Below, piece after piece: positions 34,290 to 50,895 of a stretch of DNA of 64,000 nucleotides. The translations under genes were made by a program, and so were the position numbers. The stretch's first letter is position 1. Each line of letters begins with the position of its first letter. Below the pieces are notes generated by a model, which saw only the letters and a program-made list of their open reading frames with translations, was not told where the DNA came from and did not search any database. The DNA comes from Rhizobium brockwellii (GTDB lineage: Bacteria; Pseudomonadota; Alphaproteobacteria; Rhizobiales; Rhizobiaceae): contig NZ_CP053440.1 in assembly GCF_000769405.2 (NCBI RefSeq), positions 620,001 through 684,000 on the forward strand, in the 5' to 3' direction.

Positions 34290-34378
34290 TGCAGGTGCAA
34301 GTGATGGGACCGTTGGACGTTGCTCTTGCTGCCGGCGCTACTGGTGGGCAGCGGGGCGCTGGGCTATACGACGGAAAA

Positions 34379-34394
34379 GTGCCTGATCAGGCAC
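34379..34394. promoter_or_regulatory. 16-bp perfect palindrome upstream of lacI-type gene
   Basis: GTGCCTGATCAGGCAC is a perfect palindrome 35 bases before the LacI-type start, in the 140-base gap after the GH151-like gene. It may be an operator, or a hairpin that attenuates transcription between the hydrolase and regulator genes (8-bp stem only if bases melt to a loop). No second copy was found. Confidence 0.45.
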
Positions 34395-34429
34395 CATTCC
34401 CCCTAAATGCGTGCAGGAGCCCACTCGAC

Positions 34430-35464: not shown

Positions 35465-35500
35465 CGCGTCTGTCCGCCAAGGGATTAAAGGGAGGAAGCT

Positions 35501-36598
35501 TTGGCCAGCGTAGAATTGCAGCAGATAAACAAGTCCTACGGAAGCTTCCAGGCGATCGCCAACCTCAATCTGAGCATCGAGGATGGCTCCTTCACGGTCT
35601 TCGTCGGTCCCTCCGGCTGCGGGAAATCCACCTTGCTGCGGATGATCGCGGGTCTCGAAAAGATCACCGCAGGAGAACTGCAGATCGACGGCCGGCGCAT
35701 GAACGACGCTGACCCGATCGAGCGCGGTGTTGCCATGGTCTTCCAGAACTACGCCCTCTATCCGCACATGACCGTCGAGCAAAATATCGGCTTCTCGCTG
35801 CGTATGGCTGGCATGGGCAAGGTCGAGATCGAGCGCAGTGTCGCTGCCGCCGTAACGACGCTGCAGATCGAGCCGCTGATGAAGCGCAAGCCCGCGCAAC
35901 TTTCCGGCGGCCAGCGCCAGCGTGTCGCCATTGGCCGCGCGATCGTGCGCAACCCGGCCGTCTTCCTGTTCGATGAGCCGTTGTCGAACCTCGACGCAGA
36001 GCTCAGGGTCTCCATGCGCGTGGAGATTGCCAAGCTGCACCGTCGCATCGGCGCAACGATGATCTATGTCACCCACGATCAGACGGAAGCGATGACGCTT
36101 GCCGACAAGATTGTCGTGATGCGAGCGGGTAAAATCGAGCAGATAGGCACTCCGGACACGCTCTATGCGGATCCGGACAATCTCTTCGTTGCCGGTTTCA
36201 TAGGCTCGCCGCGGATGAATTTCCTGGATGGGACGCTCGGAGCTGATGGCCTAGTCAGGCTCGAATGCGGCGCGGTCTTCAGACCAGGCCCTGTACATGC
36301 GGCGGGCGACATTACGGTCAAACTCGGTATTCGGCCGGAACATTTCGTCGGACGCGACGACGCCGGTGGTGCGATCGATCTTAAGGTCGATGTGGTTGAG
36401 AACCTCGGCGGAACACGCTTCATCTACGGCACGGCGAATTCGGGACAACCGGTGATCGTGGAGGATCGCTCCGACACGGCCCGTCGCCCCGGAGACACCG
36501 TCACAGCCGGTTTTCCTGCAAGCAGAGCGCTGCTCTTCGGCGCAGACGGCCAGCGCATTCGCCAAGCCCGGCGTGCAAACGGCATTCCGGCGGAGTGA
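35501..36598 (+). CDS. CUT1 sugar ABC ATPase, MalK/UgpC-like (system C)
   Basis: The 365-residue ATPase has Walker [10 protein letters not shown], signature [14 protein letters not shown], Walker [16 protein letters not shown] and H-loop [15 protein letters not shown], then the OB-fold domain (GIRPEHFVG). The start codon is TTG 35501, set by GGGAGGA five bases upstream and the family N-terminus [13 protein letters not shown]. It lies after lacI and just before the GH95 gene and completes the transporter of the fucoside cluster. Confidence 0.92.
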
Positions 36599-36600
36599 CC

Positions 36601-38865
36601 ATGGCAGACGATCTTCTCTGGTACGATGCTCCGGCCCGGCTGTGGACGGATGCTCTGCCGCTCGGCAATGGTCGGCTCGGGGCCATGGTTTTCGGCGACC
36701 CGCTTTGCGAGCGGCTGCAGATCAACGAATCCACTTTCTGGGCCGGCGGCCCTTATCAGCCGGTCAATCCGGATGCTTTCAGACATCTGGCATCGGTGCG
36801 GCAGCTGGTCTTCGACGGCGGTTATGCGGAAGCGGAGGCGATGGCCGAAAAACACCTGATGGCGGAGCCGATCAAGCAGATGTCCTACCAGCCGGTCGGC
36901 GATCTCCACATTGAATTTGCTCACGCCGAAGGCGTCTCTCACTATCGACGCGCGCTCGATCTCGAAACCGCAACGGCGACCGTCTCCTATGTTGCGGACG
37001 GAGTCGCCTTTTTGCGCGAATCCTTCATATCACCGGTCGACGGCGTGCTGGTTCTGCGACTATCGGCCGACCGGAAGGCTGCGATCAATTGCCGGATATG
37101 GCTGAACAGCCCGCAGCACGGGGAGGCGAGTGGCAGCGAGGGTTCACTGATTTTTTCCGGGACAGGAAAACCGGAGTCCGGCATTACCGCTGCTCTGCAC
37201 TTCGCCTTCGGCATTAGGCTTATCAACAGCGGAGGAGTGGTCGGCGGGTCGGCCGAAGCCCTGTCGGTCGAAGCAGCCGACGAAGTGCTGCTCCTCCTCG
37301 ATGCCGCAACAAGCTTCAAGCGGTACGACGACGTGTCCGGGAATCCCCGTGCTGACATCGCCGCGAGGCTTGGGCAGGCCCATCACCGTGGTTTCGCGCC
37401 GATGCGTCGCGATCATGTCAAAGAACATCAAAGATTATTCCGCGCCTTCGCCATCGATCTCGGCTCGACCGCGGCGGCATCCCTGCCGACCGATCGCCGC
37501 ATCGCTGACTTCGCCGGCGGCAAGGATCCCGCATTGGCTGCGCTTTATGTGCAGTTCGGCCGCTATCTGATGATTGCTTCGTCGCGTCCCGGTACCCAGC
37601 CGGCCAATCTCCAGGGCATCTGGAACGCAGAAACCGATCCGCCCTGGGGCAGCAAATATACCGCCAACATCAATCTCCAAATGAACTACTGGCTGCCGGC
37701 GCCCGCCAATCTGCCCGAGTGTATTCAGCCGCTTGTCGCAATGGTGGAGGAGCTTGCCGAGACGGGCAGCGTGGTCGCCCACAGGCATTATCGCGCCCGC
37801 GGTTGGGTGATGCACCATAACACCGACCTTTGGCGAGCCGCGGGACCGATCGACGGCGCCAAATGGGGCCTCTGGCCCACAGGCGGCGCCTGGCTGATGG
37901 CACACCTGCTTGATCTGTGCGACTACCTCGATGACCCGGAGGCGATGCGGCGTAGGCTATTTCCTGTTGCGAAAGGGGCCGCGCAATTCCTCTTCGATGT
38001 CCTCGTCCCGCTTCCAGGTACGGACTATCTGGTGACGAACCCTTCTCTGTCTCCCGAAAACGTACATCCGCACGACGCTTCGATCTGCGCCGGTCCGGCA
38101 ATGGACCGCCAGCTCATCCGGGACTTTCTGGGCCTGCTTCGTCCCCTTGCAGCCTCCATGGCCGGCGAAGACGATCTCGTCGCGGACGTCGATCGTGTGC
38201 TGCTTCGCATTCCGCCCGACAGGATCGGCTCTGCCGGCCAGTTGCAAGAATGGCTGGAAGATTGGGATATGCAGGCGCCCGAAATCCATCACCGCCATGT
38301 CTCGCATCTCTACGGTCTCTATCCGAGCTGGCAGATCAATATGGAGGATACGCCGGAGCTCGCCGCCGCCGCCCGCCGCTCCCTCGAAATCCGCGGCGAC
38401 GATGCGACGGGATGGGGGATCGGCTGGCGCATTAATCTGTGGGCACGGCTTCGAAACGGCAATCATGCTTTTGATGTGCTGAAGCTTCTTCTCACCCCCG
38501 AGCGGACCTATAACAACATGTTCGACGCCCATCCTCCGTTCCAGATCGATGGGAATTTCGGTGGCGCGGCCGGCATACTGGAAATGCTGGTTCAGTCTTC
38601 TCCGAGGGAAATTCATCTCCTGCCGGCGTTGCCCTACGCGTGGCAGGCAGGGTCTTTGCGCGGTCTGCGTGTTCGCGGTGGTCTGCTGCTGGATATTGAC
38701 TGGCGCAACGGCATGCCGACGATGGTCACGCTGTCGGCAGTTCGCGCTGCAGTCGCGAAGCTCCGTTTCGGTCAAAGAACATGGGACGTCGATCTGCGAG
38801 CCGGTGAACGTCTTGTGCTCGACGCCATCGATGGGTTTTCCAAGGGAACGACGGGCAGCAGATAG
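36601..38865 (+). CDS. GH95-family alpha-L-fucosidase
   Basis: The 754-residue enzyme has the GH95 N-terminal beta-domain signature LWYDAPARLWTDALPLGNGRLGAMVFGDP followed by INESTFWAGGP. The alpha/alpha-barrel carries the N-x-N pair in ANINLQMNYW (Asn356, Asn358), a SPEN segment with Glu486 and QIDGNFG with Asp650, which fit the catalytic Asn/Asn/Glu/Asp set known from bifidobacterial AfcA. No signal peptide, so it acts in the cytoplasm. GH95 cleaves alpha-1,2-L-fucosyl (sometimes L-galactosyl) linkages. ATG 36601 has GGAG six bases upstream. Confidence 0.9.
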   Translation: MADDLLWYDAPARLWTDALPLGNGRLGAMVFGDPLCERLQINESTFWAGGPYQPVNPDAFRHLASVRQLVFDGGYAEAEAMAEKHLMAEPIKQMSYQPVGDLHIEFAHAEGVSHYRRALDLETATATVSYVADGVAFLRESFISPVDGVLVLRLSADRKAAINCRIWLNSPQHGEASGSEGSLIFSGTGKPESGITAALHFAFGIRLINSGGVVGGSAEALSVEAADEVLLLLDAATSFKRYDDVSGNPRADIAARLGQAHHRGFAPMRRDHVKEHQRLFRAFAIDLGSTAAASLPTDRRIADFAGGKDPALAALYVQFGRYLMIASSRPGTQPANLQGIWNAETDPPWGSKYTANINLQMNYWLPAPANLPECIQPLVAMVEELAETGSVVAHRHYRARGWVMHHNTDLWRAAGPIDGAKWGLWPTGGAWLMAHLLDLCDYLDDPEAMRRRLFPVAKGAAQFLFDVLVPLPGTDYLVTNPSLSPENVHPHDASICAGPAMDRQLIRDFLGLLRPLAASMAGEDDLVADVDRVLLRIPPDRIGSAGQLQEWLEDWDMQAPEIHHRHVSHLYGLYPSWQINMEDTPELAAAARRSLEIRGDDATGWGIGWRINLWARLRNGNHAFDVLKLLLTPERTYNNMFDAHPPFQIDGNFGGAAGILEMLVQSSPREIHLLPALPYAWQAGSLRGLRVRGGLLLDIDWRNGMPTMVTLSAVRAAVAKLRFGQRTWDVDLRAGERLVLDAIDGFSKGTTGSR

Positions 38866-39019: not shown

Positions 39020-39871
39020 TCATGCCGCCGCGTGCCATCCATCGCGGATATGACGGTGGCCTTCGCGATAGACCGCTTCCGGTGTCTCGGAAAAGTCGCG
39101 CCAGACCTTTGTCGCGGCGGCGAGCTCCTTGAGCGCCCGGCCGAAGGCTTCGATTGTCAGCCATCCGTCGTAGCCGCTCGCCCGTAGTGCCCTGAATGTC
39201 TCCGCCCAGGGAATGTTGCCGCGACCGGGTACGCCGCGGTCGTTCTCCGAAATGTGGACATGCACGATGCGGTCACTGTTTCGCGTGAACGCGCCGATGG
39301 GATCTGTCTCTTCGATATTGCTGTGGAACGTGTCGTACATGGCGCGGATATGCGGATGTCCGACCGCGTCGATATGGGCCGCAAGATCGTCCATCGTGTT
39401 GAACAGGTAGCATTCGAAGCGGTTTAGCGCCTCAAGCCCGATCGTGATGCCATGCTTTGCTGCATGATCGCCGATCGCGCGTTGCGAGGAAACCGAGCGC
39501 TTGAGTTCCGCCGCGCTCGGCCCGCTTCCCGAAAATTTGCCGAGCGTCGAATGTAACGGCCCGCTCAGCATCGTCGCGCCGAGCGCATCGCTGCAGTCGA
39601 TGGCCCATTTCATGTAGTCGATGCCGCGCCTGCGGGTCGCGGCGTCGGCGGCGATCAGGTTCATCTGCGGATCGCCCATGGCGGAAACGGCGGTCCGTTC
39701 CAGGCCGATCCGGTCAAGCATGTCTGCCAGCCGGTGGTAGTCGTCGGGTGTGCCGGAAAAGATCGGGATCTCGACACCGTCAAACCCCGTGTCCTTGATA
39801 TCGCGTAACAGTGCCTCGTGTTTCCGGCCGACACTTGTCGTCCAGAGGAACATGCACATGCCGATCTTCAT
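39020..39871 (-). CDS. Sugar phosphate isomerase/epimerase family (TIM barrel)
   Basis: The 283-residue xylose-isomerase-like protein has the metal ligands of the family: Glu in GLEALNRFE, Asp/His in AMYDTFHSNIEE, His in VHVHISENDRG and Glu in LTIEAFG. ATG 39871 (GGAGGGG upstream) matches the family N-terminus MKIGMCMFLW. It is divergent from another barrel of the same class at 40217, with TGGTNNNACCA operators between them. It would interconvert ketoses or keto-acids in the same pathway. Confidence 0.87.
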   Translation of the reverse strand: MKIGMCMFLWTTSVGRKHEALLRDIKDTGFDGVEIPIFSGTPDDYHRLADMLDRIGLERTAVSAMGDPQMNLIAADAATRRRGIDYMKWAIDCSDALGATMLSGPLHSTLGKFSGSGPSAAELKRSVSSQRAIGDHAAKHGITIGLEALNRFECYLFNTMDDLAAHIDAVGHPHIRAMYDTFHSNIEETDPIGAFTRNSDRIVHVHISENDRGVPGRGNIPWAETFRALRASGYDGWLTIEAFGRALKELAAATKVWRDFSETPEAVYREGHRHIRDGWHAAA

Positions 39872-39935
39872 CTCCCCTCCACTTGGCCTGCGGCCACTCC
39901 AAGATGGTTTCAACGCCCTATCACTTTTTCAGATC

Positions 39936-39946
39936 TGGTCATACCA
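39936..39946. promoter_or_regulatory. TGGTNNNACCA operator, copy 1
   Basis: TGGTCATACCA, a perfect inverted repeat of the class bound by FadR-type GntR proteins (TNGTNNNACNA). Its 16-base context ATCTGGTNNTACCAAA (39933-39948) is repeated at 49968-49983 upstream of transporter D. Confidence 0.7.
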
Positions 39947-39950
39947 AACC

Positions 39951-39978
39951 TTGGAATCTGGTCAAGCCAGTTTATTAC
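39951..39978 (+). promoter_or_regulatory. Candidate promoter with operator-like repeat in its spacer
   Basis: TTGGAA (39951-39956) and TATTAC (39973-39978) are spaced by 16 bases as a sigma-70-type -35/-10 pair. The spacer holds CTGGTCAAGCCAG (39958-39970), a related but imperfect inverted repeat. A repressor bound there would block this promoter. Confidence 0.45.
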
Positions 39979-40216
39979 ACGCTTGGGGTGCCGGATTCGC
40001 GCCTAAGCGAGAAAATCAGTATTAAATATCGACGGCCTAAAGAAATATCGACCTTTTGGCCCCGTCTTGCAGAGGGTTAAGAATTGAGCTAGAGCTTTAA
40101 AATAACAAGAATTGGCCGAACCAGATTGCCGAAGGTGGCGAGAGTGGCCAACCATAACATGACCTTTTGCCGCCCGATTGGCGGTGGACCGTGCTGCAAC
40201 TGTCTGGGAGGACCTC

Positions 40217-41104
40217 ATGCATCTTTCGACACATAACTGGATGCGGGCCGAACCGCTCGCCGTCACGCTGAAGCGCATCAAGAAATATGGCTACGAAAGC
40301 ATCGAGATATCTGGCGAGCCGGCGCAGTACGACGTCAAGGAGACGCGCGCGCTGCTGAAAGAGCACGGCATCCGCTGCTGGGGTGCTGTTACGCTGACGC
40401 TCGGCGAACGCAATCTTGCCGCCAGGGATGAAGGCCAGCGCGCCAGGTCAGTGGACTATGTCAAGAGCGTCATCACCATGGTCAGCGAACTCGATGGCGA
40501 GATCGTCACCCTCGTGCCGGCCACCGTCGGCAAGGTGGTGCCGGATGGCACCGAGGAGGAAGAGTGGACATGGGTGGTGGACGCTACCAAGGAGTGTTTT
40601 GCCCATGCCCTGAAGAGGGGCGTGCGCATTGCCGTCGAGCCGCTCAACCGTTTCGAGACTTATTTCTTCAACCGTGCCGCCCAAGCGCTGGCGCTCGCCG
40701 ATGCCGTCAGCCCCGAATGCGGGGTTTGCCTTGATGCCTTCCACCTGAACATCGAGGAGGAAGACATGTATGAAGCGATCCGGCTCGCTGGAAAGCGACT
40801 GTTCGATTTCCACGTCGCCGATAACAATCGTTTTGCCGCCGGCCTCGGCCAGCTCGACTGGCCGAAGATCATCGGCACGCTGAAGGAGATCGGGTACGAC
40901 GGCGCCGTCACCAACGAATTCGTCGCTCCGGTCGACCGCACGCCGGCCTCAAAATATCCGGACATGGTCGAGCGCAACCCCGTCGATATTCCCCCGGAGC
41001 AACTGAAATTTATCCAGGACCACGGCTCAAGCCTTCTCACTGAGAAGTTCTACGACGATCAGATGCGGATCACTGCCGAGACGATCCTGCCGCTGATCAG
41101 GTAA
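40217..41104 (+). CDS. Sugar phosphate isomerase/epimerase family, ketose 3-epimerase-like
   Basis: The 295-residue TIM barrel has the ligand set of ketose-3-epimerase relatives: Glu in AVEPLNRFETYFFN, Asp and His in CLDAFHLNIEEEDM, His in DFHVADNNRFAAG and Glu in VTNEFVAP. ATG 40217 has GGGAGGA five bases upstream; earlier in-frame codons are not family-like. It leads the plus-strand operon isomerase-enolase-gntR-2HADH. The substrate is probably a ketose or its acid. Confidence 0.88.
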   Translation: MHLSTHNWMRAEPLAVTLKRIKKYGYESIEISGEPAQYDVKETRALLKEHGIRCWGAVTLTLGERNLAARDEGQRARSVDYVKSVITMVSELDGEIVTLVPATVGKVVPDGTEEEEWTWVVDATKECFAHALKRGVRIAVEPLNRFETYFFNRAAQALALADAVSPECGVCLDAFHLNIEEEDMYEAIRLAGKRLFDFHVADNNRFAAGLGQLDWPKIIGTLKEIGYDGAVTNEFVAPVDRTPASKYPDMVERNPVDIPPEQLKFIQDHGSSLLTEKFYDDQMRITAETILPLIR

Positions 41105-41163
41105 CGAACGGAAAGACATATGCCCTGTGGCTCGCGGGCCGTAAGGGGCAGGGGATCCGAGAC

Positions 41164-42333
41164 ATGCGCATTAAGACCGTAGAGGCCTGGTGGATCAAAA
41201 TTCCTATCGAGGCGAGCCGTCAGCACCGCAGCGACTTCGGCCGACTGACGACCTTCGATAGTGCGATCCTGCGGATCGAAACGGACGACGGCATGGTCGG
41301 CTGGGGAGAGGGCAAGAACGCCGCCGGCAGTTCGGGCACCTATGGCACGCTGGTACACATGATCAATCACGAGATTGGACCGAAGCTCATTGGCCGCGAT
41401 CCTGCCGACATCTCCACCATATGGGAGATGCTCTATAACGGTGTACGCCACGAGACGGCGGCGAGTTCGGGTCACGCCATGCCCGAGATCGCGCGGCGCG
41501 GTCTTTCCGTCGCGGCGATCAGCGCGGTCGACATAGCGCTCTGGGACATTCTCGGCAAGTCGCTCGGCGTCCCTGTCTGGAAGCTGCTGGGTGGGCGCAA
41601 GGCGGACAGGTTGCCCGCCTATGCCTCGGGCGGTTGGGAGAGCGTAGACCGGATCGGCGAACAGCTCCGGTCCTATATCGCGGCCGGTGGTTTCAAGTCA
41701 GTCAAGATGCGCGTCGGTGCGATGGATCGTGCGCTGCATGTCTCGGCATCGCGCGTGCGTGCGGCTCGCAAGGCAATCGGCCCCGACGTCGACCTGATGG
41801 TCGATGCGCACGGCACCTATACTGTTGCGGAGGCAAAGCGCTTCATCCAGATGGTCGCCGATTGCGACCTTGCCTGGTTCGAGGAGCCGGTAATAGCAGA
41901 TGACAAGCCGGGCATGGCGGAGGTGCGCGCGGCTGGGAACGTGCCGATCGCTGCGGGCGAAAGCGAGGCGACGCGTTTTGCCTTTCGAGATCTTGCCATG
42001 CTTCGGGCCGCCGACATATTCCAGCCGGATCCCGCCTTCTGCGGCGGCATTACGGAGGCGATGCGCATCAGTTCGCTCGCCAGCGCCTTCAATCTCCGTT
42101 TCGCGCCGCATCTTTGGGCCGGCGCGCCCTGCTTCTTCTCCGGCCTGCACTTGTGTGCGGCCTCCCCGGCAAGCTTCATCATCGAATATTCGCTCGGCGC
42201 CAATCCGATGATCCACGATCTTGTCGAGGACACTGTGTCGGTGAAAGACGGTATGGTAGAGATCCCGGATAGGCCTGGCCTGGGTTTCACGATCAATCAG
42301 CGGGTCCTGGAGACTCACGCGCAAAGACAGTGA
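41164..42333 (+). CDS. Enolase-superfamily acid-sugar dehydratase-like protein
   Basis: The 389-residue protein has the capping domain and a TIM barrel with the base lysine/arginine in SVKMRVG. Metal ligands lie in MVDAHGTY (Asp), AWFEEPV (Glu) and AAGESE (Glu), and the histidine in FAPHLWAGAP is consistent with MR-subgroup acid-sugar dehydratases. It likely removes water from a sugar acid to give a 2-keto-3-deoxy acid. L-fuconate dehydratase is longer (about 440) and is not clearly matched, so no symbol is given. Same operon as the isomerase upstream and gntR downstream. Confidence 0.88.
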   Translation: MRIKTVEAWWIKIPIEASRQHRSDFGRLTTFDSAILRIETDDGMVGWGEGKNAAGSSGTYGTLVHMINHEIGPKLIGRDPADISTIWEMLYNGVRHETAASSGHAMPEIARRGLSVAAISAVDIALWDILGKSLGVPVWKLLGGRKADRLPAYASGGWESVDRIGEQLRSYIAAGGFKSVKMRVGAMDRALHVSASRVRAARKAIGPDVDLMVDAHGTYTVAEAKRFIQMVADCDLAWFEEPVIADDKPGMAEVRAAGNVPIAAGESEATRFAFRDLAMLRAADIFQPDPAFCGGITEAMRISSLASAFNLRFAPHLWAGAPCFFSGLHLCAASPASFIIEYSLGANPMIHDLVEDTVSVKDGMVEIPDRPGLGFTINQRVLETHAQRQ

Positions 42334-42335
42334 CG

Positions 42336-43025
42336 ATGAAAGAAAATTCCCTCCTCTCCGATCTCGCAGCCCACCTGTTCTCGAACTCGAGCGGCAACGG
42401 CCGCACGCCTTCGGAGCGAGAGCTTGCGGAGCATTTCGGAGTCAGCCGGGGCCAGGTTCGCGAGGCATTGGCCATTCTGGAGGCAATGCGCATCGTCGAG
42501 CGCCGGGCCAAGTCGGGCATCTATCTGACGACCACGGAGGCGAGCGTGGAGGCAATGGCGCTTTTTGCCCGCGCCGGCGTGCCGCTTGATCCTATCCTGA
42601 TCTACGAGACCGTGGAGCTTCGCAAGATCCATGAAATCAAGGCCGCGGAACTCGCCTGCAATCGGGCGACGGAGGAGAATTACCAGCACTTGCGCGATAT
42701 CCTCGCCGCGTCGGAGGCGAAGCTAGCCGCCGGCGAGGGGCTGGCGCGCGAGGACCGGGATTTTCATTTGGAGATCGTCCGGGCCACCAAAAATAGCGTC
42801 TTCCATCGGGTGTGCAGCGTCTATTACGTCATGGGCGAGCACCGCCTGCCGATCTACTTTGCCGACGCCGCCCGCAGCCGGCGCTCGCATGAGGAGCATA
42901 TCCGCATCTACGAGGCGCTGCTTTCCCGAGACAGCAATCTCGCCCAGGCGCTGATGAGCGCGCATCTTCAAGGTGCGGAAAGCTATTGGAAGGGTCTTAT
43001 CGGCGGTCCAGCGACGGCAGCCTGA
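42336..43025 (+). CDS. GntR-family regulator with FCD domain
   Basis: The 229-residue regulator has the HTH in NGRTPSERELAEHFGVSRGQVREALAILEAMRIVERR (about 23-60) and FCD helices with RDFHLEIV and RSHEEHIRIYEALL (about 140-200). ATG 42336 is preferred over GTG 42330, which overlaps the previous stop; the two starts differ by two residues. FadR-type GntR proteins bind TGGTNNNACCA; such sites lie at 39936, 49971 and 50153, so it probably represses its own operon and transporter D. This link is inference. Confidence 0.92.
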   Translation: MKENSLLSDLAAHLFSNSSGNGRTPSERELAEHFGVSRGQVREALAILEAMRIVERRAKSGIYLTTTEASVEAMALFARAGVPLDPILIYETVELRKIHEIKAAELACNRATEENYQHLRDILAASEAKLAAGEGLAREDRDFHLEIVRATKNSVFHRVCSVYYVMGEHRLPIYFADAARSRRSHEEHIRIYEALLSRDSNLAQALMSAHLQGAESYWKGLIGGPATAA

Positions 43026-43050
43026 TAGGCGTAACCGGCGGGGAGGGCCG

Positions 43051-44025
43051 ATGAGCTTCATCTTTTCCACACATCCCCTGCACCCTGCGGCCAGGTCCAT
43101 GCTCGAGGCTGCGGGTGATCTGCGCGTCGCTTCCGCGCCCGATCCCGAAACATTGCTGCGAGAAGGCCGCGGCGCGGGCATCCTCGTCATACGAGCGCCG
43201 ATCCCGCCGGCCTTCTTCGAGGACGCGCCGGCACTTCGCGCGGCGATCCGCCATGGTGCCGGGCTCGACATGGTGCCGATGGATGCGGCGACCCGCGCCG
43301 GCGTGCTTGTCGCCAACGTCCCGGGCGCCAATGCCTCGACTGTCGCCGAGCACGTCTTCCTCGTGACACTGGCCCTGCTTCGGCGCTTCCGCCTGATGGA
43401 CCGCGAACTGCGTCAGAACGGCTGGGTGGCGGGCCGCGCCCAATCGGACGCGGCCGTCGACCTCGCCGGCCGCACCATGGGCATCGTCGGCATGGGCAAT
43501 GTCGGCAAGGCGATCTTCAAGATCGCGAAGTTCGGTTTCGGCCTGGAGGTGGTGGCCACGAGCCGGTCGCCGGAAAGCGTGCCGGACGGCGTGCGTTTCC
43601 TGACGATCGATGAGCTTGTTGCGACGGCCGACATCGTGGTGCTCTGCTGCCCGCTGACGCCGGAGACGACTGGCATGCTCAATGCCGGTCGCGTCGGGCG
43701 CATGAAGCCCGCGGCCATTCTGGTCAACGTCTCGCGCGGCCCCGTGATCGATGATGCGGCATTGATCGAGGCGCTGCGCGATGGTCGCATCGGCGGAGCC
43801 GCGCTCGACGTCTTTGCAACGCAGCCGCTGCCGCTCGACCATCCCTATTTCGGCTTTGACAACGTCATCGTCACGCCGCATCTGGCTGGTCTGACGGAAG
43901 AGAGCATGATGCGCATGGGAACGGGCGCGGCGAGCGAAGCCCTGCGCGTCATCAAGGGCGACTTGCCCGTTAATTTGCGCAACCCCGAAGTGGTAGAACA
44001 CTACCGCCGGCGCTTTCCCGAATAG
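43051..44025 (+). CDS. D-2-hydroxyacid dehydrogenase family protein
   Basis: The 324-residue NAD-binding protein has GIVGMGNVGKAIFK at about residues 145-158 and the catalytic arginine in VNVSRGPVID (Arg229) and histidine in TPHLAGL (His277). The position normally occupied by the catalytic glutamate reads Gln258 (DVFATQPLP), as in formate dehydrogenase-type members. ATG 43051 has GGGGAGGG upstream. It would reduce or oxidise a 2-keto acid made by the enolase-family dehydratase. A substrate cannot be named. Confidence 0.9.
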   Translation: MSFIFSTHPLHPAARSMLEAAGDLRVASAPDPETLLREGRGAGILVIRAPIPPAFFEDAPALRAAIRHGAGLDMVPMDAATRAGVLVANVPGANASTVAEHVFLVTLALLRRFRLMDRELRQNGWVAGRAQSDAAVDLAGRTMGIVGMGNVGKAIFKIAKFGFGLEVVATSRSPESVPDGVRFLTIDELVATADIVVLCCPLTPETTGMLNAGRVGRMKPAAILVNVSRGPVIDDAALIEALRDGRIGGAALDVFATQPLPLDHPYFGFDNVIVTPHLAGLTEESMMRMGTGAASEALRVIKGDLPVNLRNPEVVEHYRRRFPE

Positions 44026-44104
44026 CGCCTCGTCGCGACAACTCGAAACGCTCGCTGCCCCTGCCGTGCCGCCGAGACCGCGGGCATCCTTCGGACCGAT
44101 CAGG

Positions 44105-45181
44105 TTAGCCCGCGTGCCGCAGGCTTACACCGCTTCCGGCGTCAAACAGCACGACCTTCTCCGGATTCCACGAAAAGCGAACCTCATCCTCGATCCGAAG
44201 CGCCGTCTGTGTCGGCACGGTCGCGTGGATGAACTTCTCGCCGGTGCGCAGCGTCACGATCTTTTCAACACCATGGTTTTCCACGTCGTGGACACGTGCT
44301 TCGCCGGGCGCGCCACTGTCGAGAAAAATGTCCTCGGGACGGATGCCGAAGGTGAGCGGGCGACCGTCTGTCGCGATCCCGTGTCCGTTGCCGAGCGGCA
44401 GCCGGTAGCCCTCGCTCGCCACTGCCTCACCGCCGGCAAGCGTGCCGGCAATCAGGTTCATCGGCGGCGAGCCGACCGCGCGCGCGACGAAGGTGTTGAC
44501 CGGGTTTCCGTAGATCTCCTGCGGCGTACCCGTCTGCACCAGTTGGCCATTGTTCAGGACGCCGATCTTGTCGCCCATCGACATGGCCTCTATCTGGTCG
44601 TGAGTGACGAAGAGGAAGGTCGCGCCGAGGTTCATCTGCAGGTTTTTCAGCTCGGTGCGAAGTGCTTCGCGAAGCTTCGCATCGAGCGCCGAAAGCGGTT
44701 CGTCCATCAAGAAGACCCGCGGCTTGCGCACGATGGCCCGGCCGATCGATACGCGCTGCATCTCGCCTCCCGACAGTCGGTCCGTCTTGCGGTCGAGCAG
44801 ATGCTCGATGCGCAGGGTCTTCGCAACGCGGTCGACGCGCTCCTTGATTTCTCCGGGTTCAACGCGACGGATACGGGATTTCAACGGAAATTCCAGGTTC
44901 TCCCGCACCGTATAGCGCGGGTAAAGCGAATATTGCTGGAGCACCAGGGCCACGTCGCGCTCGGCGGCACCCCATTCGGCAACGTCCTGCCCGTCGATGA
45001 AGACCTGGCCTGCGGTAGGCTTTTCGAGGCCGGCGATCAGGCGCAGCGTCGTCGTCTTGCCGGCGCCGGTCTGCCCGAGCAGCACGAAGAACTCGCCGTC
45101 AGCAATGTCGATGTTCAGGTTTTTCAGCGCCGTGTGGTTGCCGAAGGTCTTGGTGATGCCCTTGAGTTCGATATGCGCCAT
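44105..45181 (-). CDS. ABC ATPase 2 of the two-ATPase transporter (system D)
   Basis: The 358-residue MalK-type ATPase has Walker A GQTGAGKTTT, signature LSGGEMQRVSIGRA (Glu in place of Gln), Walker B FLMDEPLSALDAKLR and H-loop VTHDQIEAMSMGDK, with an OB-fold C-terminus (GIRPEDIFL). Its ATG lies in the stop of the previous ATPase gene (TGATG). Two adjacent, non-identical ATPases with LSGGE/LSGGD signatures are a feature of GlpS/GlpT-like polyol transporters. It probably forms a heterodimer with the partner. Confidence 0.92.
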   Translation of the reverse strand: MAHIELKGITKTFGNHTALKNLNIDIADGEFFVLLGQTGAGKTTTLRLIAGLEKPTAGQVFIDGQDVAEWGAAERDVALVLQQYSLYPRYTVRENLEFPLKSRIRRVEPGEIKERVDRVAKTLRIEHLLDRKTDRLSGGEMQRVSIGRAIVRKPRVFLMDEPLSALDAKLREALRTELKNLQMNLGATFLFVTHDQIEAMSMGDKIGVLNNGQLVQTGTPQEIYGNPVNTFVARAVGSPPMNLIAGTLAGGEAVASEGYRLPLGNGHGIATDGRPLTFGIRPEDIFLDSGAPGEARVHDVENHGVEKIVTLRTGEKFIHATVPTQTALRIEDEVRFSWNPEKVVLFDAGSGVSLRHAG

Positions 45182-46290
45182 CAGAGTCTGATCCCGAGCG
45201 ACGAGCCGGTCGCGGTGTTGAAGAAATGTGCCTGGGCGGGGTCGATGCGCGCCCAGACGGCTTCGCCGGGACCAGGCACGAAACCGCTCTTGGTGCGTGC
45301 CCTGATCATCTGGTGACCGACCTTCAGGTCCACGATGTCGTGCGAGCCGAGAGGCTCAATGATATGCGCTTCGACCGGCATGAAGCCTTCGCGGGCCTCC
45401 CGTGAAACGAGCACGCCCTCAGGCCGGACCCCGAGTGTCAACTTGCCGTTTTCGGCCCTTGCGTCGGAAAGGCGGCTGGCCAGCACGGCGGGGAACTCGA
45501 AGCCCGTCGTGCCATCGCCGACCTGCACGCTGGTATGGCTGCCCGTTTCGCTGATAGTCGCCGGCGCCATGTTCATGACCGGACTTCCGACGAACTGGGC
45601 GACGAACGTGTTGGCGGGTTGCGCGTAAACCTCCTCAGGCGTGCCGATCTGCTGGAGGATGCCCTCGTGCATGATGACGATGCGGTCGGCGAGCGACATG
45701 GCCTCCACCTGGTCATGCGTCACGTAGATGGTGGTTGAACCCTGCTTGATATGCAGGCGCTTGATTTCCGCCCGCATCTCCTCGCGCAGCTTCGCGTCGA
45801 GCGCACCGATCGGCTCGTCCATCAGCATGGCCTTTGGGCGTCGCACCAGCGCGCGGCCGATTGCGACCCGCTGCATGTCGCCGCCTGACAGCGCCGAGGG
45901 CTTGCGGGCCAGCAAACCGGTGATGCGCAGCACACCGGCGATCTCGCGGACCGACGCATCGACATCGGCACGGCTCATCCGGGTAGCGCGGAGCGGGAAG
46001 GCGATGTTCTCGTAGACCGTCATGTGCGGATAGAGCGAGAAGGATTGGAACACCATGGCGATGTCCCTGCCGGATGCCTTGATATGCTGCACCGGCTGCC
46101 CGTCGATCAGAATGTCGCCTTCGTCGATCGTCTCCAGCCCCGCGACGGCGCGCAATGTCGTCGTCTTTCCGCAGCCCGATTGTCCAAGCAGCACGATGAA
46201 TTCGTTGTCGGCGATGGCGAGATTAAGGTCTTTGATGACCTGGACGGCACCGAAATATTTCTGAATTCCGCGAAGTTCGATCTGCGTCAT
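45181..46290 (-). CDS. ABC ATPase 1 of the two-ATPase transporter (system D)
   Basis: The 369-residue MalK-type ATPase has Walker A GQSGCGKTTT, signature [14 protein letters not shown] (Asp in place of Gln), Walker B AMLMDEPIGALDAKLR, H-loop YVTHDQVEAMSLADR and an OB-fold C-terminus (GVRPEGVLV). It overlaps the small membrane protein gene at its start and the second ATPase at its end. Signature changes from Q to D/E are compatible with activity when paired with another ATPase. Confidence 0.92.
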   Translation of the reverse strand: MTQIELRGIQKYFGAVQVIKDLNLAIADNEFIVLLGQSGCGKTTTLRAVAGLETIDEGDILIDGQPVQHIKASGRDIAMVFQSFSLYPHMTVYENIAFPLRATRMSRADVDASVREIAGVLRITGLLARKPSALSGGDMQRVAIGRALVRRPKAMLMDEPIGALDAKLREEMRAEIKRLHIKQGSTTIYVTHDQVEAMSLADRIVIMHEGILQQIGTPEEVYAQPANTFVAQFVGSPVMNMAPATISETGSHTSVQVGDGTTGFEFPAVLASRLSDARAENGKLTLGVRPEGVLVSREAREGFMPVEAHIIEPLGSHDIVDLKVGHQMIRARTKSGFVPGPGEAVWARIDPAQAHFFNTATGSSLGIRL

Positions 46291-46490
46291 GAATGGCTGC
46301 CTTCGTCTGGTTGCGCGTCCCGCGGGATTTTGGTCGCCACCATGAAGGCGATCAGTCCGACGAGCGTCATCGTCATGCCGTAGCGATGCAGAAACAGGTT
46401 CCAGGGCTGGCAGAGCGCGATAATGCCGAGGATCATCAGATACTGTGATGCGGGTTCGAGATATTTCTGGTTCAAGGCGCGGAAGGTCAT
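46287..46490 (-). CDS. Small two-TM membrane protein of the ABC operon
   Basis: A 67-residue protein starting MTFRALNQKYLEPASQYLMI, with two hydrophobic segments (about residues 16-36 and 37-54) joined by a short loop with HRYG, and a charged tail. ATG 46490 overlaps the stop of the MalG-like permease (ATGA), and its stop overlaps the ATPase start, so it is translated with them. GlpU in rhizobial glycerol ABC operons (glpSTPQUV) is a small protein of unknown role near this place; this may be an analogue. Easy to miss, since it lies within a longer open frame on the same strand. Confidence 0.8.
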   Translation of the reverse strand: MTFRALNQKYLEPASQYLMILGIIALCQPWNLFLHRYGMTMTLVGLIAFMVATKIPRDAQPDEGSHS

Positions 46491-47446
46491 TTGCGGATCG
46501 CTCCGAAGCTCATGCCGCGCAGGAGATGGTTCCTGAGCAGGAAGGTGAAGATGGCGACCGGTAGCAGGAACAGGAACGTGCCGGCCGCAATGACCGTCCA
46601 ATCCGGCAGGCCCGAGCCGACCTGGCTCGGGATGAAGGGTGGAGCCGTTTGCGCGCGTCGGTTCGTCATAATTAGCGCAAATGCATATTCGTTCCAGGCC
46701 GTGATGAAGCAGAAGACCGCGGTCGCGGCGATTCCGGTCGCTGCTTCCGGGATGACGATCTTGAAAAAGGCCTCCATCCGCGTGTAGCCGTCGACGAGCG
46801 CGGCCTCCTCGTATTCCTTCGGGATCTCGTCGATGAAGCCCTTCATCAGCCAGACGGAAAAGGAAAGGTTGAAGGCGGTGTAGAGTATGATGAGGCCCCA
46901 ATGCGTGTCGTTGAGGCCGACGACACGGTACATGAGGAACATCGGGATCGCCACGACGACGGGCGGCAGCATGCGCGTCGACAAGATGAAGAAGAGAAGG
47001 TCTGCCTCCCCCTTCACTTTGAAGCGCGAGAAACCGTAGGCTGTAAATGTCCCCATGCCGACAGCCAGCACCGTGGACGTGATGGCGACGATCAGCGAGT
47101 TCATGAAGCGGTTCGGATAGCCGGAGGGCTGCACCTCGCCGCGGCCGGAGCGAACGATCTTCTCGCCGCCGTCGAACACCATCCGCTCCCACCAGGGGGC
47201 GGCGGCATATTCTTCAGGGGTGGGCGCCCCGCGCAGTTGCGAGCGCTTGGTGAAGAGCTTCACGAAGGGCGAGAGTTCCGGCTCGAAGAGCACCGTCGGC
47301 GGAATGGTGGTGGCGAGGTTGCGCGGCTTGAAGGCCGTCGAGGTGATCCAGTAGATCGGCGCAAGGAAGATCAGCGTGATGACCAGTACGGCGGCGATCG
47401 CCACCCGGTTCAGCGCGCGTTCGGAGCGGGTTTGGACGGCAGCCAT
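46487..47446 (-). CDS. ABC permease, MalG-like (system D)
   Basis: The 319-residue permease is longer than usual because of a periplasmic insertion after the first helix (about residues 45-105, including RSQLRGAPTPEEYAAAPWWER), a feature of GlpQ-like subunits. EAA loop KEYEEAALVDGYTRMEAFFKIVIPEAATG is present. The C-terminus is HLLRGMSFGAIRK. Overlaps the downstream small gene. Confidence 0.9.
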   Translation of the reverse strand: MAAVQTRSERALNRVAIAAVLVITLIFLAPIYWITSTAFKPRNLATTIPPTVLFEPELSPFVKLFTKRSQLRGAPTPEEYAAAPWWERMVFDGGEKIVRSGRGEVQPSGYPNRFMNSLIVAITSTVLAVGMGTFTAYGFSRFKVKGEADLLFFILSTRMLPPVVVAIPMFLMYRVVGLNDTHWGLIILYTAFNLSFSVWLMKGFIDEIPKEYEEAALVDGYTRMEAFFKIVIPEAATGIAATAVFCFITAWNEYAFALIMTNRRAQTAPPFIPSQVGSGLPDWTVIAAGTFLFLLPVAIFTFLLRNHLLRGMSFGAIRK

Positions 47447-47447
47447 C

Positions 47448-48353
47448 TCAGCGCTCCTTCACTTTGTTGAGGTACTTGACGTAGATGTTGGTGATGGCAA
47501 GAACCATGATGAGGACGATGTAGGCGAGTGCGCAGGAGCGCCCCGTCTGCCATTCCTGGAAGGCCATCTTGTAGAGCCGGATGGAGATCACCTCGGTCGT
47601 CGGTTGGCTGGTCAGGATGTAGGCGAGGTCGAAGGTCTTGAAGGCCTCCATCGTACGGAAGATGATTGCGATCATGAGGATCGGCGCCACCAGCGGCAGC
47701 GTGATGCGGAAGAATGTATAGAACGGCCCCGCCCGGTCGATCGCCGCTGCCTCGTAGAGATGCTTTGGCACGGCCGAAAGGCCGGCAAGCGACAGCAGCA
47801 TCACGAAGGGCGACCACATCCAGATGTCCGTGATTGCGACCGCATAGAGCGCCATGTCCGGATTCGACAGCCACTCGAAGGAGCCGAGGCCGAGTGCGTA
47901 GTTGATGATGCCGAAGGACGGGTCGTAGAGCAGCTTCCAGAAGAGGCCGACCACGGCCATCGAGAGCATCATCGGCAGCAGCAGCAGCGTCGTCAGAAGA
48001 CCCTTCAGCGGGATATCGCGGTTGAGCAGCATCGCGGTGCCGAAGCCGACGATCACCTGCCCCGTCACAGAGACGATCACATATTTCGCCGTGATGGCGA
48101 AATTTGACCAGATGAAAGGATCGTTCAGCAACTCGCGGTAGTTCTGCAGGCCGACGAAGTTGGCCGGCGCGTTCGACGAAGCGCGAAAGTCGGTGAAGGA
48201 ATAGCCGAGCGAATAGATCAGCGGAAAGATGTTAAAGACGATCAGGAACAGGATCGTCGGAATGATGAAGAGATTGCGAATCCGGATGTCGCTCATGCCG
48301 CGGGATGCGGCACGCGATTTCGTGTCCAGCGATGTCATGACTGCGGTGGCCAA
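47448..48353 (-). CDS. ABC permease, MalF-like (system D)
   Basis: The 301-residue permease (from TTG 48353) has six hydrophobic segments, EAA loop KHLYEAAAIDRAGPFYTFFRITLPLVAP and a GlpP-like C-terminus. TTG 48353 has GGAGGAGAGG 5 bases upstream; ATG 48338 (MTSLDTKSRAASRG) is the alternative but is 19 bases from that ribosome site. The coding frame extends further upstream through the hairpin region but is not credible there. Confidence 0.9.
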   Translation of the reverse strand: MATAVMTSLDTKSRAASRGMSDIRIRNLFIIPTILFLIVFNIFPLIYSLGYSFTDFRASSNAPANFVGLQNYRELLNDPFIWSNFAITAKYVIVSVTGQVIVGFGTAMLLNRDIPLKGLLTTLLLLPMMLSMAVVGLFWKLLYDPSFGIINYALGLGSFEWLSNPDMALYAVAITDIWMWSPFVMLLSLAGLSAVPKHLYEAAAIDRAGPFYTFFRITLPLVAPILMIAIIFRTMEAFKTFDLAYILTSQPTTEVISIRLYKMAFQEWQTGRSCALAYIVLIMVLAITNIYVKYLNKVKER

Positions 48354-48440
48354 TCCTCTCCTCCTCCGAGAGTTCGGCGCCAGATGCCGGAACGGCATCA
48401 CGATGCGCGAAGTTGATGCCGGGCGCCGCGCCCTCTCGAG

Positions 48441-48495
48441 CCGCGCCCTTCGGCGCGGAGATGCAGAATGAATTGGGAGGGGCCGCGGCCCCTCC
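48441..48495 (-). terminator. Two hairpins between SBP and permease genes (system D)
   Basis: CCGCGCC/GGCGCGG (48441-48458) form a 7-bp stem with a 4-nt loop. A perfect 20-nt palindrome (48476-48495, GGAGGGGCC arms) lies just after the SBP stop. Both are in the 156-base gap between the SBP and MalF-like genes, as in system A. They probably favour SBP mRNA over downstream genes. Confidence 0.7.
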
Positions 48496-48509
48496 ACTGA
48501 GCGCGCTTG

Positions 48510-49820
48510 CTACTTGTGGCGTCCGTATTTCGCGAACGTCGCGTTCCAGTCCGCTGCCAGGGATTCGAGCGCTTCCTTCGCCGTGCCTTGGCCGGCGGTG
48601 ACGAAGGGATAAATGCGCTGGTTCATCTGGATCAGCAGTTCGGCATATTCAGGCGTTGCCCAGAAGTCCTTCACCTTGAACATCGTCTCGTAGAAGGCCT
48701 TATTATAGGGTGTCGCGTTCTGAAATTCCGGCGATTCAAGCACCTTGGCGCTTGCCGTGTAGCCGCCGAGTTCGGCCCAGCGCTTCTGGGTCTCGTCCTT
48801 AACGAACCATTCGAGGAATTTCATCGCCTCTTCCTGGTTTTTTGAGTAGGAGATCACCGATATGCCTTGGCCGCCGAGCGCTGCGAATTGCTCGCCGTTC
48901 GGGCCTGCCGGATTGGCAAAGAAGCCGGTAACCTTGGCGTTCGGGTTGGACGCCTCGTTCACCAGGGCAGGGAAGAAGGCGAAGTAGTTCATGCTCATCG
49001 CCGCCAGGTTCTCGGTGATCGCCTGGTTGTTCTCGACGAAGAAGGACTTGGCCCAGCCCGGAGGCGTAAAGCCGTAGAGCTCGCGATAAAGCTCGAGCGC
49101 CTTGACGTTCTTCTCGGAATTGATGATGCCGTCGACCTTGTAGCTCTGGTAGTCGCCGAGTTCGCCTCCAAACGAGAAGATCGCGTTCTCGACACCCATG
49201 ACGAGACCGTCATAAGAGTTGTCGGTGTAGATGGCGATTCCGTATCGCTTCTGGTCTGGACGGTGGAAGAACTCGGCGATGTCACGCATCTCGGCCCATG
49301 TCTTCGGCGGGGCGAGGTCGTAGCCGTATTTGGCCTTGAACGCCTCCATCTCCTTGGGATCTTCGAACCAGTCCTTGCGGTAGGACCAGCCGACGGCGTC
49401 GCCTTCGGCCGGAACCGACCAGTACTTTTTCGAGTTCGACGGATATTCGGAGTAGTATTTCACCGTTGCCGGGGCCATCACCTGGGTCAGATTGTGCTTG
49501 GTGAAGAAGTCGGTCAGATCGACGTAATGGCCGGCTTCGGACGCTGCCCCGATCCACTGACTGTCGCCGACGACCATGTCATAGGCTGAACCCTTGGCGT
49601 TGAACTCGGTGAAGGCCTTGGTCTGGAAGTCGGCCCACGGGGTGGTCTCGACCGTGACCTTGACGCCGGTTTGTGCCTCGTATTCGTTGGCGAGTTCCTG
49701 AAGGTAGTTTGCCGGGTCCCACTCAGCCCAGAAGATGGTCAGTTCCTGGGCCTGTGCGGATGTTCCGCACGCCCACATCAATCCGACACCGGCCAACAGA
49801 CCGGTCATAGTTTTGCGCAT
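48510..49820 (-). CDS. ABC substrate-binding protein (system D)
   Basis: The 436-residue receptor has a signal peptide (MRKTMTGLLAGVGLMWACGTSAQAQE). Mature sequence LTIFWAEWDPANYLQELANEYEAQTGVKVTVETTPWADFQTKAFTEFNAKGSAYDMVVGDSQWIGAASEAGHYVDL resembles SBPs of polyol/oligosaccharide transporters. ATG 49820 has GGAGGAA 5-6 bases upstream and is preferred to an earlier in-frame ATG at 49835. It is first gene of the minus-strand operon, preceded by operators at 49971 and 50153. Confidence 0.92.
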   Translation of the reverse strand: MRKTMTGLLAGVGLMWACGTSAQAQELTIFWAEWDPANYLQELANEYEAQTGVKVTVETTPWADFQTKAFTEFNAKGSAYDMVVGDSQWIGAASEAGHYVDLTDFFTKHNLTQVMAPATVKYYSEYPSNSKKYWSVPAEGDAVGWSYRKDWFEDPKEMEAFKAKYGYDLAPPKTWAEMRDIAEFFHRPDQKRYGIAIYTDNSYDGLVMGVENAIFSFGGELGDYQSYKVDGIINSEKNVKALELYRELYGFTPPGWAKSFFVENNQAITENLAAMSMNYFAFFPALVNEASNPNAKVTGFFANPAGPNGEQFAALGGQGISVISYSKNQEEAMKFLEWFVKDETQKRWAELGGYTASAKVLESPEFQNATPYNKAFYETMFKVKDFWATPEYAELLIQMNQRIYPFVTAGQGTAKEALESLAADWNATFAKYGRHK

Positions 49821-49967
49821 AACGTTTCCTCCCATTTATGCACGCCTCCCGCTTCATCGCGGGCCTCCCGATCTGGCTTCCCGATCCTCCTGGGTGGTGT
49901 TCGTGCTGGGGGTCCTCCTCGACCCCTTCGCGCGTTTCAGATCTCAAGCCTGAATGTCGTTACCTTA

Positions 49968-49983
49968 ATCTGGTATTACCAAA
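49968..49983. promoter_or_regulatory. TGGTNNNACCA operator, copy 2
   Basis: ATCTGGTATTACCAAA contains the inverted repeat TGGTATTACCA (49971-49981) and matches the isomerase-region site in 14 of 16 positions. It lies just downstream of a minus-strand TTGACG, in the direction of the system D SBP gene, where a repressor would block transcription. Confidence 0.7.
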
Positions 49984-50150
49984 TGCCATTATCGTCAAGC
50001 GCAACCTGGGAGAGCTCTCGTCAAAGGCTCGTCTTCGATGTTTCGACGTCCATCCCCTGCAAATGCGGGCCTGTCGACGCGGTCTTGTCGGTCCGTCTCA
50101 CAGTCATCATCGCCGATCCAGACCACACAATACAAGAACATATTACTGCC

Positions 50151-50165
50151 ACTGGTCTAACCAGT
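50151..50165. promoter_or_regulatory. TGGTNNNACCA operator, copy 3
   Basis: ACTGGTCTAACCAGT is a perfect 15-base inverted repeat (6-bp arms, 3-base centre), about 182 bases from copy 2. Two sites at this distance could allow looping by a dimeric GntR. It is close to the end of the TetR gene (50194). Confidence 0.65.
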
Positions 50166-50193: not shown

Positions 50194-50832
50194 TTATGCC
50201 TCGCTCTCTGCCTGCCGTAATGCGGTATCGACAAGAGCCCTGGCGGCCCACTCGGCAACAGACTGCGCGCCTTCCGAGGTCAGGCCCCAGATATCCTTCA
50301 ATACGATCAGCACCTCGACGCCGAAGACAAGCGAAAGAGCCTGCGCAAGGCGTTCCCGGGATTCGGGCGGCACGGTGCCCTGCAGGGGGGCAGTGACGCT
50401 CTTCAGCAGGTCGACCCGGTGGCCGCGCTTGAACAGCGGCTCGTTGCCGAGCGTGCCCGCCTGGCGCTGCGCCCACTGGTCCAGCGAAAGTTTCAGCGCC
50501 GCCTTGAAGGTGGCCTCGAACTCGTCGATGCGCGGCATTGCGGTCGCCAAGAGGTCGGCAACGCGGGTGCGTGCGTCCGGGCTGTCCGATGACCAACTGA
50601 GTATCGGCCCCAGAGCCTCATCCACCACGGCATGCACGAGCACGGCCTGGCTCGGAAAGTAACGGTAGGCCGTCGCGCGCGAGACTTCGGCCGCTTCGGC
50701 GACTTCACTTACCGACGGAGTGATGCCGGACTGCATGAGCCGTGTTGCCGTTTCGAGCATCAGTTTTCGCGTTCGGGCACGCGGGCCTCGCTCGGTCCTG
50801 GTTGTTTCGTTCTGTTGACGTGAGACATCCAT
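50194..50832 (-). CDS. TetR-family transcriptional regulator
   Basis: The 212-residue regulator has the TetR HTH (about 22-65: RKLMLETATRLMQSGITPSVSEVAEAAEVSRATAYRYFPSQAVLVHAV) and a helical effector domain. ATG 50832 is chosen; GTG 50856 would add eight residues. It is divergent from the Tm-1-like gene at 50933. GTGAGA/TCTCAC repeats between them suggest autoregulation and control of the divergent operon. Confidence 0.9.
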   Translation of the reverse strand: MDVSRQQNETTRTERGPRARTRKLMLETATRLMQSGITPSVSEVAEAAEVSRATAYRYFPSQAVLVHAVVDEALGPILSWSSDSPDARTRVADLLATAMPRIDEFEATFKAALKLSLDQWAQRQAGTLGNEPLFKRGHRVDLLKSVTAPLQGTVPPESRERLAQALSLVFGVEVLIVLKDIWGLTSEGAQSVAEWAARALVDTALRQAESEA

Positions 50833-50895
50833 GTCTTTATGATACGCACGTCTCACAATTTTGCAAGGGCCCGTCGCTTTGCCCCGAACGTGAGA
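50818..50895. promoter_or_regulatory. Repeated GTGAGA half-sites between tetR and the UPF0261 gene
   Basis: ACGTGAGA occurs at 50818 and 50888, and its core in the opposite direction (TCTCAC) at 50851. TCTCAC and GTGAGA at 50851 and 50890 are an inverted pair flanking the promoter region. TetR regulators often bind TGAGAC/GTCTCA-like arms. Exact operator limits are unclear, and one copy falls inside the start of tetR. Confidence 0.45.

Follow-up and report, generated by a model that had tools for sequence, protein, structure and literature searches.

An FCD-type GntR regulator probably links a rhizobial sugar importer to catabolic genes through paired operators

Gene organization and operator sites of the locus

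A 64,000-nucleotide stretch of Rhizobium brockwellii DNA (contig NZ_CP053440.1, positions 620,001 to 684,000; hereafter the window), lying on a 0.97 Mb contig of a genome that totals 7.1 Mb, contains a gene block that encodes two isomerase-like proteins, a GntR-type regulator and an importer named here system D, and palindromic sites of the kind bound by GntR regulators lie in two of its intergenic regions. The block starts with iso1 (39020-39871, minus strand, ATG placed at 39871), which encodes a xylose-isomerase-like TIM-barrel protein (PF01261), and continues with iso2-mle-gntR-hadh on the plus strand (40217-44025). The gene iso2 (40217-41104) encodes another xylose-isomerase-like TIM-barrel protein, related to D-tagatose 3-epimerases, and mle (41164-42333) an enolase-superfamily protein resembling sugar-acid dehydratases; neither product had a match above an NCBIfam cut-off. 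They are followed by gntR (42336-43025), encoding an FCD-type GntR regulator, with an open reading frame (ORF) that opens with GTG at 42330, and by hadh (43051-44025), encoding a D-2-hydroxyacid dehydrogenase.

System D lies on the minus strand (44105-49820) and comprises two ATP-binding cassette (ABC) ATPase genes (44105-45181 and 45181-46290), two permease genes (46487-47446 and 47448-48497, the latter probably with an internal true start, judging from the annotation of its ortholog in strain 3841) and sbpD (48510-49820, ATG placed at 49820), the first gene of the operon, which encodes an extracellular solute-binding protein. Directly upstream of sbpD is tetR (50194-50856, minus strand), encoding a TetR-type regulator, and beyond it a UPF0261 gene on the plus strand. 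The equivalent block of the laboratory symbiont Rhizobium johnstonii 3841 is RL_RS35830-RL_RS35890, located on pRL12, with RL_RS35845 as the ortholog of gntR.

The core palindrome TGGTNNNACCA was found exactly three times in the window, against a mean of 0.44 in 100 shuffles. An earlier note on this DNA had recorded these three sites, and all were found where it had placed them: operator A_I (ATCTGGTCATACCAAA, 39933-39948, plus strand), about 62 bp upstream of the iso1 ATG; operator A_D (ATCTGGTATTACCAAA, 49968-49983, plus strand), 148 bp upstream of the sbpD ATG; and operator B_D (ACTGGTCTAACCAGT, 50151-50165, plus strand), 182 bp upstream of A_D and 28 bp past the tetR stop codon. The A_I and A_D 16-mers are identical at 14 of 16 bases, again as it had described. 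The count of three was exact for TGGTNNNACCA but incomplete, and two further sites had been missed: operator B_I (TGGCCGAACCA, 40113-40123, plus strand, 20.4 bits), which has one core mismatch (TGGC), and an extra operator-like site (TGGTCAAGCCA, 39959-39969, plus strand, 22.8 bits), 23 bp from A_I.

When the window was scanned with a 19-bp matrix trained on the sites of 87 loci, the window included, the top five matches (49971, 39959, 39936, 40113 and 50153, scoring 19.7-28.9 bits) all fell within the isomerase and system D intergenic regions, and the sixth scored 8.9 bits. No site of the TGGTNNNACCA class above this last value was found elsewhere in the window, including positions 34205-38865. 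The window holds five sites, paired in both intergenic regions; neither this pairing nor the overlap with promoters given below was part of the earlier picture. Taken alone, the raw count of TGGTNNNACCA is modest evidence, as two of the 100 shuffles also reached three, and conservation in relatives therefore had to decide the matter; that comparison is the decisive one.

Two features beside these sites and genes were also noted. The roughly 147 bp that separate A_D from the start of sbpD (49821-49967) are presumably for the most part a long leader, in which no obvious function was seen, and the region next door to the block (34205-38865) carries genes for a LacI-type regulator, an ABC ATPase and a GH95-type glycosidase.

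Conservation of the sites and promoter geometry

Orthologous loci numbered 96, and 87 were retained once duplicates had been dropped. Among the best 80 of 222 records with an orthologous regulator, those that carry a name are from Rhizobium, Sinorhizobium/Ensifer, Phyllobacterium, Mesorhizobium, Chelativorans and a few others, and the cluster occurs on 121 plasmid records, among others. The isomerase region was readable in 84 loci. Site A was exact in 84/84, about 250-300 bp before the iso2 start, and site B was present with no or one core mismatch in 84/84, about 70-120 bp before it. In all 50 system D regions of the same set both sites lay upstream of sbpD, at a distance of about 140-165 bp for site A and 290-340 bp for site B. 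A further 79 sbpD upstream regions taken from genomes of the family had two sites in every case (29 scored at >12 bits and 50 at >8 bits), so that, with the window included, paired sites were present in 80/80 of the genomes with sbpD among 394, representing 34 genus groups. After identical regions had been merged, 115 distinct sbpD upstream regions remained, and each of them had exactly two sites above 12 bits; 65 of the 115 lay outside the matrix training, where the weakest site scored 14.3 bits. The sbpD paralogs used as controls showed no sites, either in 13 loci with 43-46% identity or in 4 loci with 62-64% identity. The observation of paired sites is firm because they are conserved in 84/84 isomerase and 115/115 system D regions, and the expectation of the earlier note that they would be kept in orthologous regions was borne out.

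The positions of the A sites relative to the promoters were also conserved. A leftward TTGAC was found at an offset of +24/+25 from A_I in 82 of 83 isomerase loci and at +23/+24 from A_D in 113 of 115 system D regions. In the window these correspond to the putative -35 elements CTTGAC of iso1 (39961-39966, minus strand), lying under the extra site TGGTCAAGCCA, and of sbpD (49994-49999, minus strand). Since the TTGAC stands at a fixed offset from the A sites, the -10 box falls on the operator; thus A_I would lie over the putative -10 of iso1 and A_D over that of sbpD. A second site above 12 bits in the A zone of the isomerase region, as in the window, was present in 17/83 loci.

Upstream of B_I, CTTGC was found at -46/-47 in 70/83 loci and TAGA at -22/-23 in 72/83. 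In the window these elements (CTTGC at 40066-40070, TAGA at 40090-40093) define a putative iso2 promoter (40066-40093, plus strand), and B_I would be situated just downstream of it, some 10 bp into the predicted transcript. As with the other promoters and start points named here, this assignment follows from consensus elements. No conserved promoter element was found next to B_D: the best TTGAC offset was shared by 12/115 regions and lay inside the palindrome itself.

Candidate regulator, proposed mechanism and alternatives

The FCD GntR protein encoded within the iso2 operon is the proposed binder of all sites. The 15-mer TCTGGTNNTACCAAA, the long form of the site, was present in 16/16 genomes with a gntR ortholog in a set of 150 genomes, with two copies in 15 of them, and in 4/134 genomes without it, one copy each. 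In 394 genomes of the family, gntR and sbpD were both present in 79, gntR only in 5, sbpD only in 1 and neither in 309 (Fisher p about 9e-76, with related genomes treated as independent). The sites also persisted where the genes were unlinked: in 8 genomes a distance of 42-243 kb separates sbpD from gntR on the same contig and both sites were kept in 8/8, and the two genes were on different contigs in 11 genomes, some perhaps through broken assemblies, with both sites kept in 11/11. One relative, genome G104, has sbpD (72% identical) and tetR (56%) and no gntR ortholog at an E-value of 1e-30, and no site was found there in 19 kb, the best match scoring 2.8 bits. A broken sbpD was considered as the cause and rejected, the sole stop being the normal end at residue 431. 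Because the sites track gntR, persist when unlinked and are absent in G104, GntR rather than the adjacent TetR is likely to be their binder. This separation of gntR from tetR depends on a single genome for the missing sites, and of the six loci described below with no tetR match near sbpD, five belong to one genus.

These data support, with considerable confidence, a two-operon regulon in which one local FCD GntR repressor would control both the transporter and the catabolic enzymes. Its basis lies in the sites and their conservation, the consensus promoter overlap, the co-occurrence of the genes and the retention of the sites when unlinked; binding, repression, start points, inducer and looping are its predicted parts. 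The claim of the earlier note that the GntR protein at 42336 controls both loci thus gained support from the sequence comparisons, including the check for the site in genomes lacking the regulator. Its further claim that the two loci form a single pathway holds as co-regulation and co-occurrence, on the counts from the 394 genomes, but not as biochemistry.

In the proposed mechanism, GntR would occupy the palindromes with core TGGTNNNACCA when no inducer is present. The A sites, over the -10 elements of the leftward iso1 and system D promoters, would exclude RNA polymerase, and B_I, which follows the predicted start of iso2-mle-gntR-hadh transcription by about 10 bp, would block promoter clearance. 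As gntR is within this operon, GntR would also repress its own gene. The promoter-free B_D would probably reinforce repression by binding GntR together with A_D, either cooperatively or through a loop. Joint induction of uptake and breakdown would follow when a metabolite of the imported compound frees GntR. This metabolite is probably a carboxylate, a guess prompted by D142, H146, H190 and H212 of the GntR protein, which may form an FCD metal pocket.

In two Mesorhizobium loci inspected (L101 and L128), about 2.5 kb separate site A from iso1. A third TIM-barrel isomerase gene is found in this position in L101 (6436-7497) and a Gfo/Idh oxidoreductase gene in L128 (5085-6377). It therefore looks as if the operon that begins at site A is longer in both loci, and the extra genes may help to name the transported substrate.

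Several observations weigh against the regulon as described, or against a loop within it. G104 is the only genome found that combines the transporter and TetR with the absence of both gntR and the sites, and another genome, G237, has sbpD and both sites with no gntR match at an E-value of 1e-60; its assembly consists of 770 contigs and is 92% complete, so that gntR may have been missed. The bare 14-mer CTGGTNNTACCAAA was found in 72/84 genomes with gntR but also in 43/310 others (hand-counted subsets). In Rhizobium, Sinorhizobium and Phyllobacterium loci B_I reads TGGC nearly always, not TGGT. GntR may also act as an activator rather than as a repressor. Looping is not favoured by the A_D-B_D spacing, which varies from 64 to 190 bp without helical phasing. 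A periodogram on 97 distinct combinations gave R values of 0.27 at 10.5 bp versus 0.32 at 8.0-8.5 and 0.31 at 11.5, and in the isomerase region the spacing between A and B rises with intergenic length (r = 0.48, n = 44).

The role of B_D was weighed on these spacings. They amount to 159-184 bp in 106/115 regions, the remainder being 64-65 (4 regions), 99, 143, 145, 153 and 190 bp, and the DNA between A_D and B_D was hardly conserved in an alignment of 30 representative loci. Helical phasing was not supported, as the periodogram had no 10.5-bp peak. When 87 clusters were put to a Rayleigh test with a period of 10.5 bp, R was 0.33 and p about 7e-5, but these clusters are related and not independent; for this reason, and for want of a peak in the periodogram, the signal was set aside. 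A constant spacing in the isomerase region was rejected as a sign of cooperation on account of its correlation with intergenic length, and by the reasoning in the available text of PMC4494728 this suggests that the two isomerase-region sites act independently. Because B_D is promoter-free and present in 115/115 regions, it is best read as an auxiliary operator that would act at a distance, with or without a loop.

It is possible, and we put it forward tentatively, that an FCD GntR protein of the TGGTNNNACCA class serves as a bridging repressor, which would connect the promoter-overlapping operator at the transporter with the promoter-free one and act on operons that are far apart in some genomes. 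As the spacing is neither fixed nor helically phased, bridging would then need to allow for loops of about 64-190 bp. The operators could also act singly, B_D only raising the local repressor concentration with no stable loop, an account that may well hold but falls short of being favoured. It would fit the lack of helical periodicity, the occurrence of the outlying spacings (64-65, 99, 143, 145, 153 and 190 bp) and the dependence of the isomerase-region spacing on intergenic length, but it sits less well with the 159-184 bp kept in 106/115 regions despite the hardly conserved intervening DNA, and with the FCD protein Atu1419, a tetramer for which looping between two palindromes 190 bp apart was proposed (PMC7797058, available part).

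It is improbable that B_D is a roadblock to read-through from tetR into the system D operon instead of a partner of A_D. In the window it follows closely on the stop codon of tetR and has no conserved promoter element beside it, which would suit such a role; B_D is nevertheless kept, at 159-169 bp from A_D, in six loci where no tetR match lies within 1.5 kb upstream.

As to the binder itself, we judge it very unlikely that a different FCD GntR paralog of the TGGTNNNACCA class, and not the product of gntR, recognises the sites. TKGT/ACMA boxes are indeed common to regulators of the FadR subfamily, in most cases with a spacer of 3 nt (PMC4494728, available part), and G237 has sites with no gntR found, but the long site follows the gntR gene (16/16 genomes with it versus 4/134 without). 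The fetched loci of the window's own genome contain five further sites that score above 18 bits, four of them in long ORFs and one between an unrelated pair of genes. Even less probable is binding of the system D sites by TetR (50194-50856), their likeness to the isomerase sites having some other cause: tetR does lie upstream of sbpD in 23/29 family loci tested, and in the window 28 bp separate its stop codon from B_D, but both sites are kept in the 6/29 loci with no tetR match within 1.5 kb (L240, L242, L243, L247, L248 and L258; five are from one genus, so these are perhaps two events), G104 keeps tetR and sbpD and has neither gntR ortholog nor site, and the same motif occurs in the isomerase region, where no tetR adjoins.

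A larger regulon in the same genome was rejected on those five further sites; the search covered the fetched loci, a part of all matching places, and further members are possible. The bare 14-mer CTGGTNNTACCAAA was also rejected as a diagnostic across the 394 genomes, being too unspecific. Two other occurrences of palindromic sequence were observed. At 1480-1520 of L004 (own genome, C1:1208105) a long intergenic palindrome, TTATAACTGGT...ACCAGTTATAA, scoring 25.5 bits, lies between divergent genes, one of which looks like a CGNR-type regulator gene, and this palindrome is probably the site of another regulator. Genome G527 of the family contains CTGGTNNTACCAAA 16 times versus 0 for reversed controls; among the matches listed (10), every one has the sequence CTGGTCGTACCAAA, suggestive of a dispersed repeat.

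Regulator family and comparison with known systems

The GntR protein has an N-terminal winged helix (PF00392, E 1.5e-11, 44.2 bits, cut-off 27) and a C-terminal FCD domain (PF07729, E 3e-22, 79.8 bits, cut-off 24.3). It scored below the cut-offs of all six NCBIfam models that it matched (NanR, LldR, UxuR, GlcC, ExuR and PdhR), with at most 88.4 bits against cut-offs of 260-442 (NanR 88.4/260, LldR 67.6/311, PdhR 44.4/330); the regulator therefore differs from these and is left unnamed. D142, H146, H190 and H212 are present, and the motifs that hold them are conserved in 87 orthologs. In Atu1419 of Agrobacterium fabrum the metal/carboxylate pocket of the FCD domain consists of one Asp/Asn and three His, according to the available part of PMC7797058.

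Nothing on the regulator was found in the open-licence literature searched, for which some locus tags were guessed from position, and of the three papers listed for the motif none concerns rhizobia. PMC7105596 proved to have no bearing on the matter. A cluster of strain 3841 described for its synteny with S. meliloti pSymA, pRL120605-613 (PMC1557990, available part), was considered as this one and is probably another, because pRL120609-10 is listed as a PepT system in the part of PMC3333776 available.

This work provides a candidate regulator with good support, its operators and its target operons for a conserved rhizobial uptake and catabolic system. To judge from the comparisons above, the import of a sugar and its enzymatic processing are very probably under the control of one local repressor in rhizobia of many genera. 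With the orphan transporter linked to its enzymes, the range of substrates to be considered becomes smaller, and the conserved auxiliary operator with its variable spacing offers a natural series for the study of GntR action at a distance.

Auxiliary operators of the Lac type are distant second operators that stand beside a promoter-borne one. Unlike these, the spacing between A_D and B_D is not helically phased across species.

The sites fit the operator of the FadR subfamily, in most members of which the GT and AC of TKGT/ACMA stand 3 nt apart (PMC4494728, available part), in agreement with the class in which the earlier note had placed them; their assignment to GntR comes from co-occurrence only. 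The group of DgoR, ExuR, GlcC, LldR and PdhR, as presented in the same available text, shares with our regulator the order of GntR and FCD domains and the TKGT/ACMA operators with a 3-nt spacer; acidic metabolites as effectors and double sites in divergons are also reported for it.

Atu1419 is an FCD/VanR-group GntR tetramer that binds palindromes 190 bp apart, with looping proposed (PMC7797058, available part). Like the system described here, it combines an FCD GntR protein with paired palindromes in one intergenic region, one of them over a -10 box, and it controls its own gene together with catabolic genes, as proposed for GntR here. The pairing is similar too, being found in 115/115 regions, 106 of them at 159-184 bp compared with 190 bp in Atu1419. 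Its palindrome is ATGTATACAT, unlike TGGTNNNACCA here, and Atu1419, whose entry codes were not looked up, was not recognised among the 9 PDB matches of the GntR protein at E 0.001. It also differs in that a second pair is located here at a transporter promoter, unlinked in some genomes. The arrangement of the regulon is of a kind already known in bacteria.

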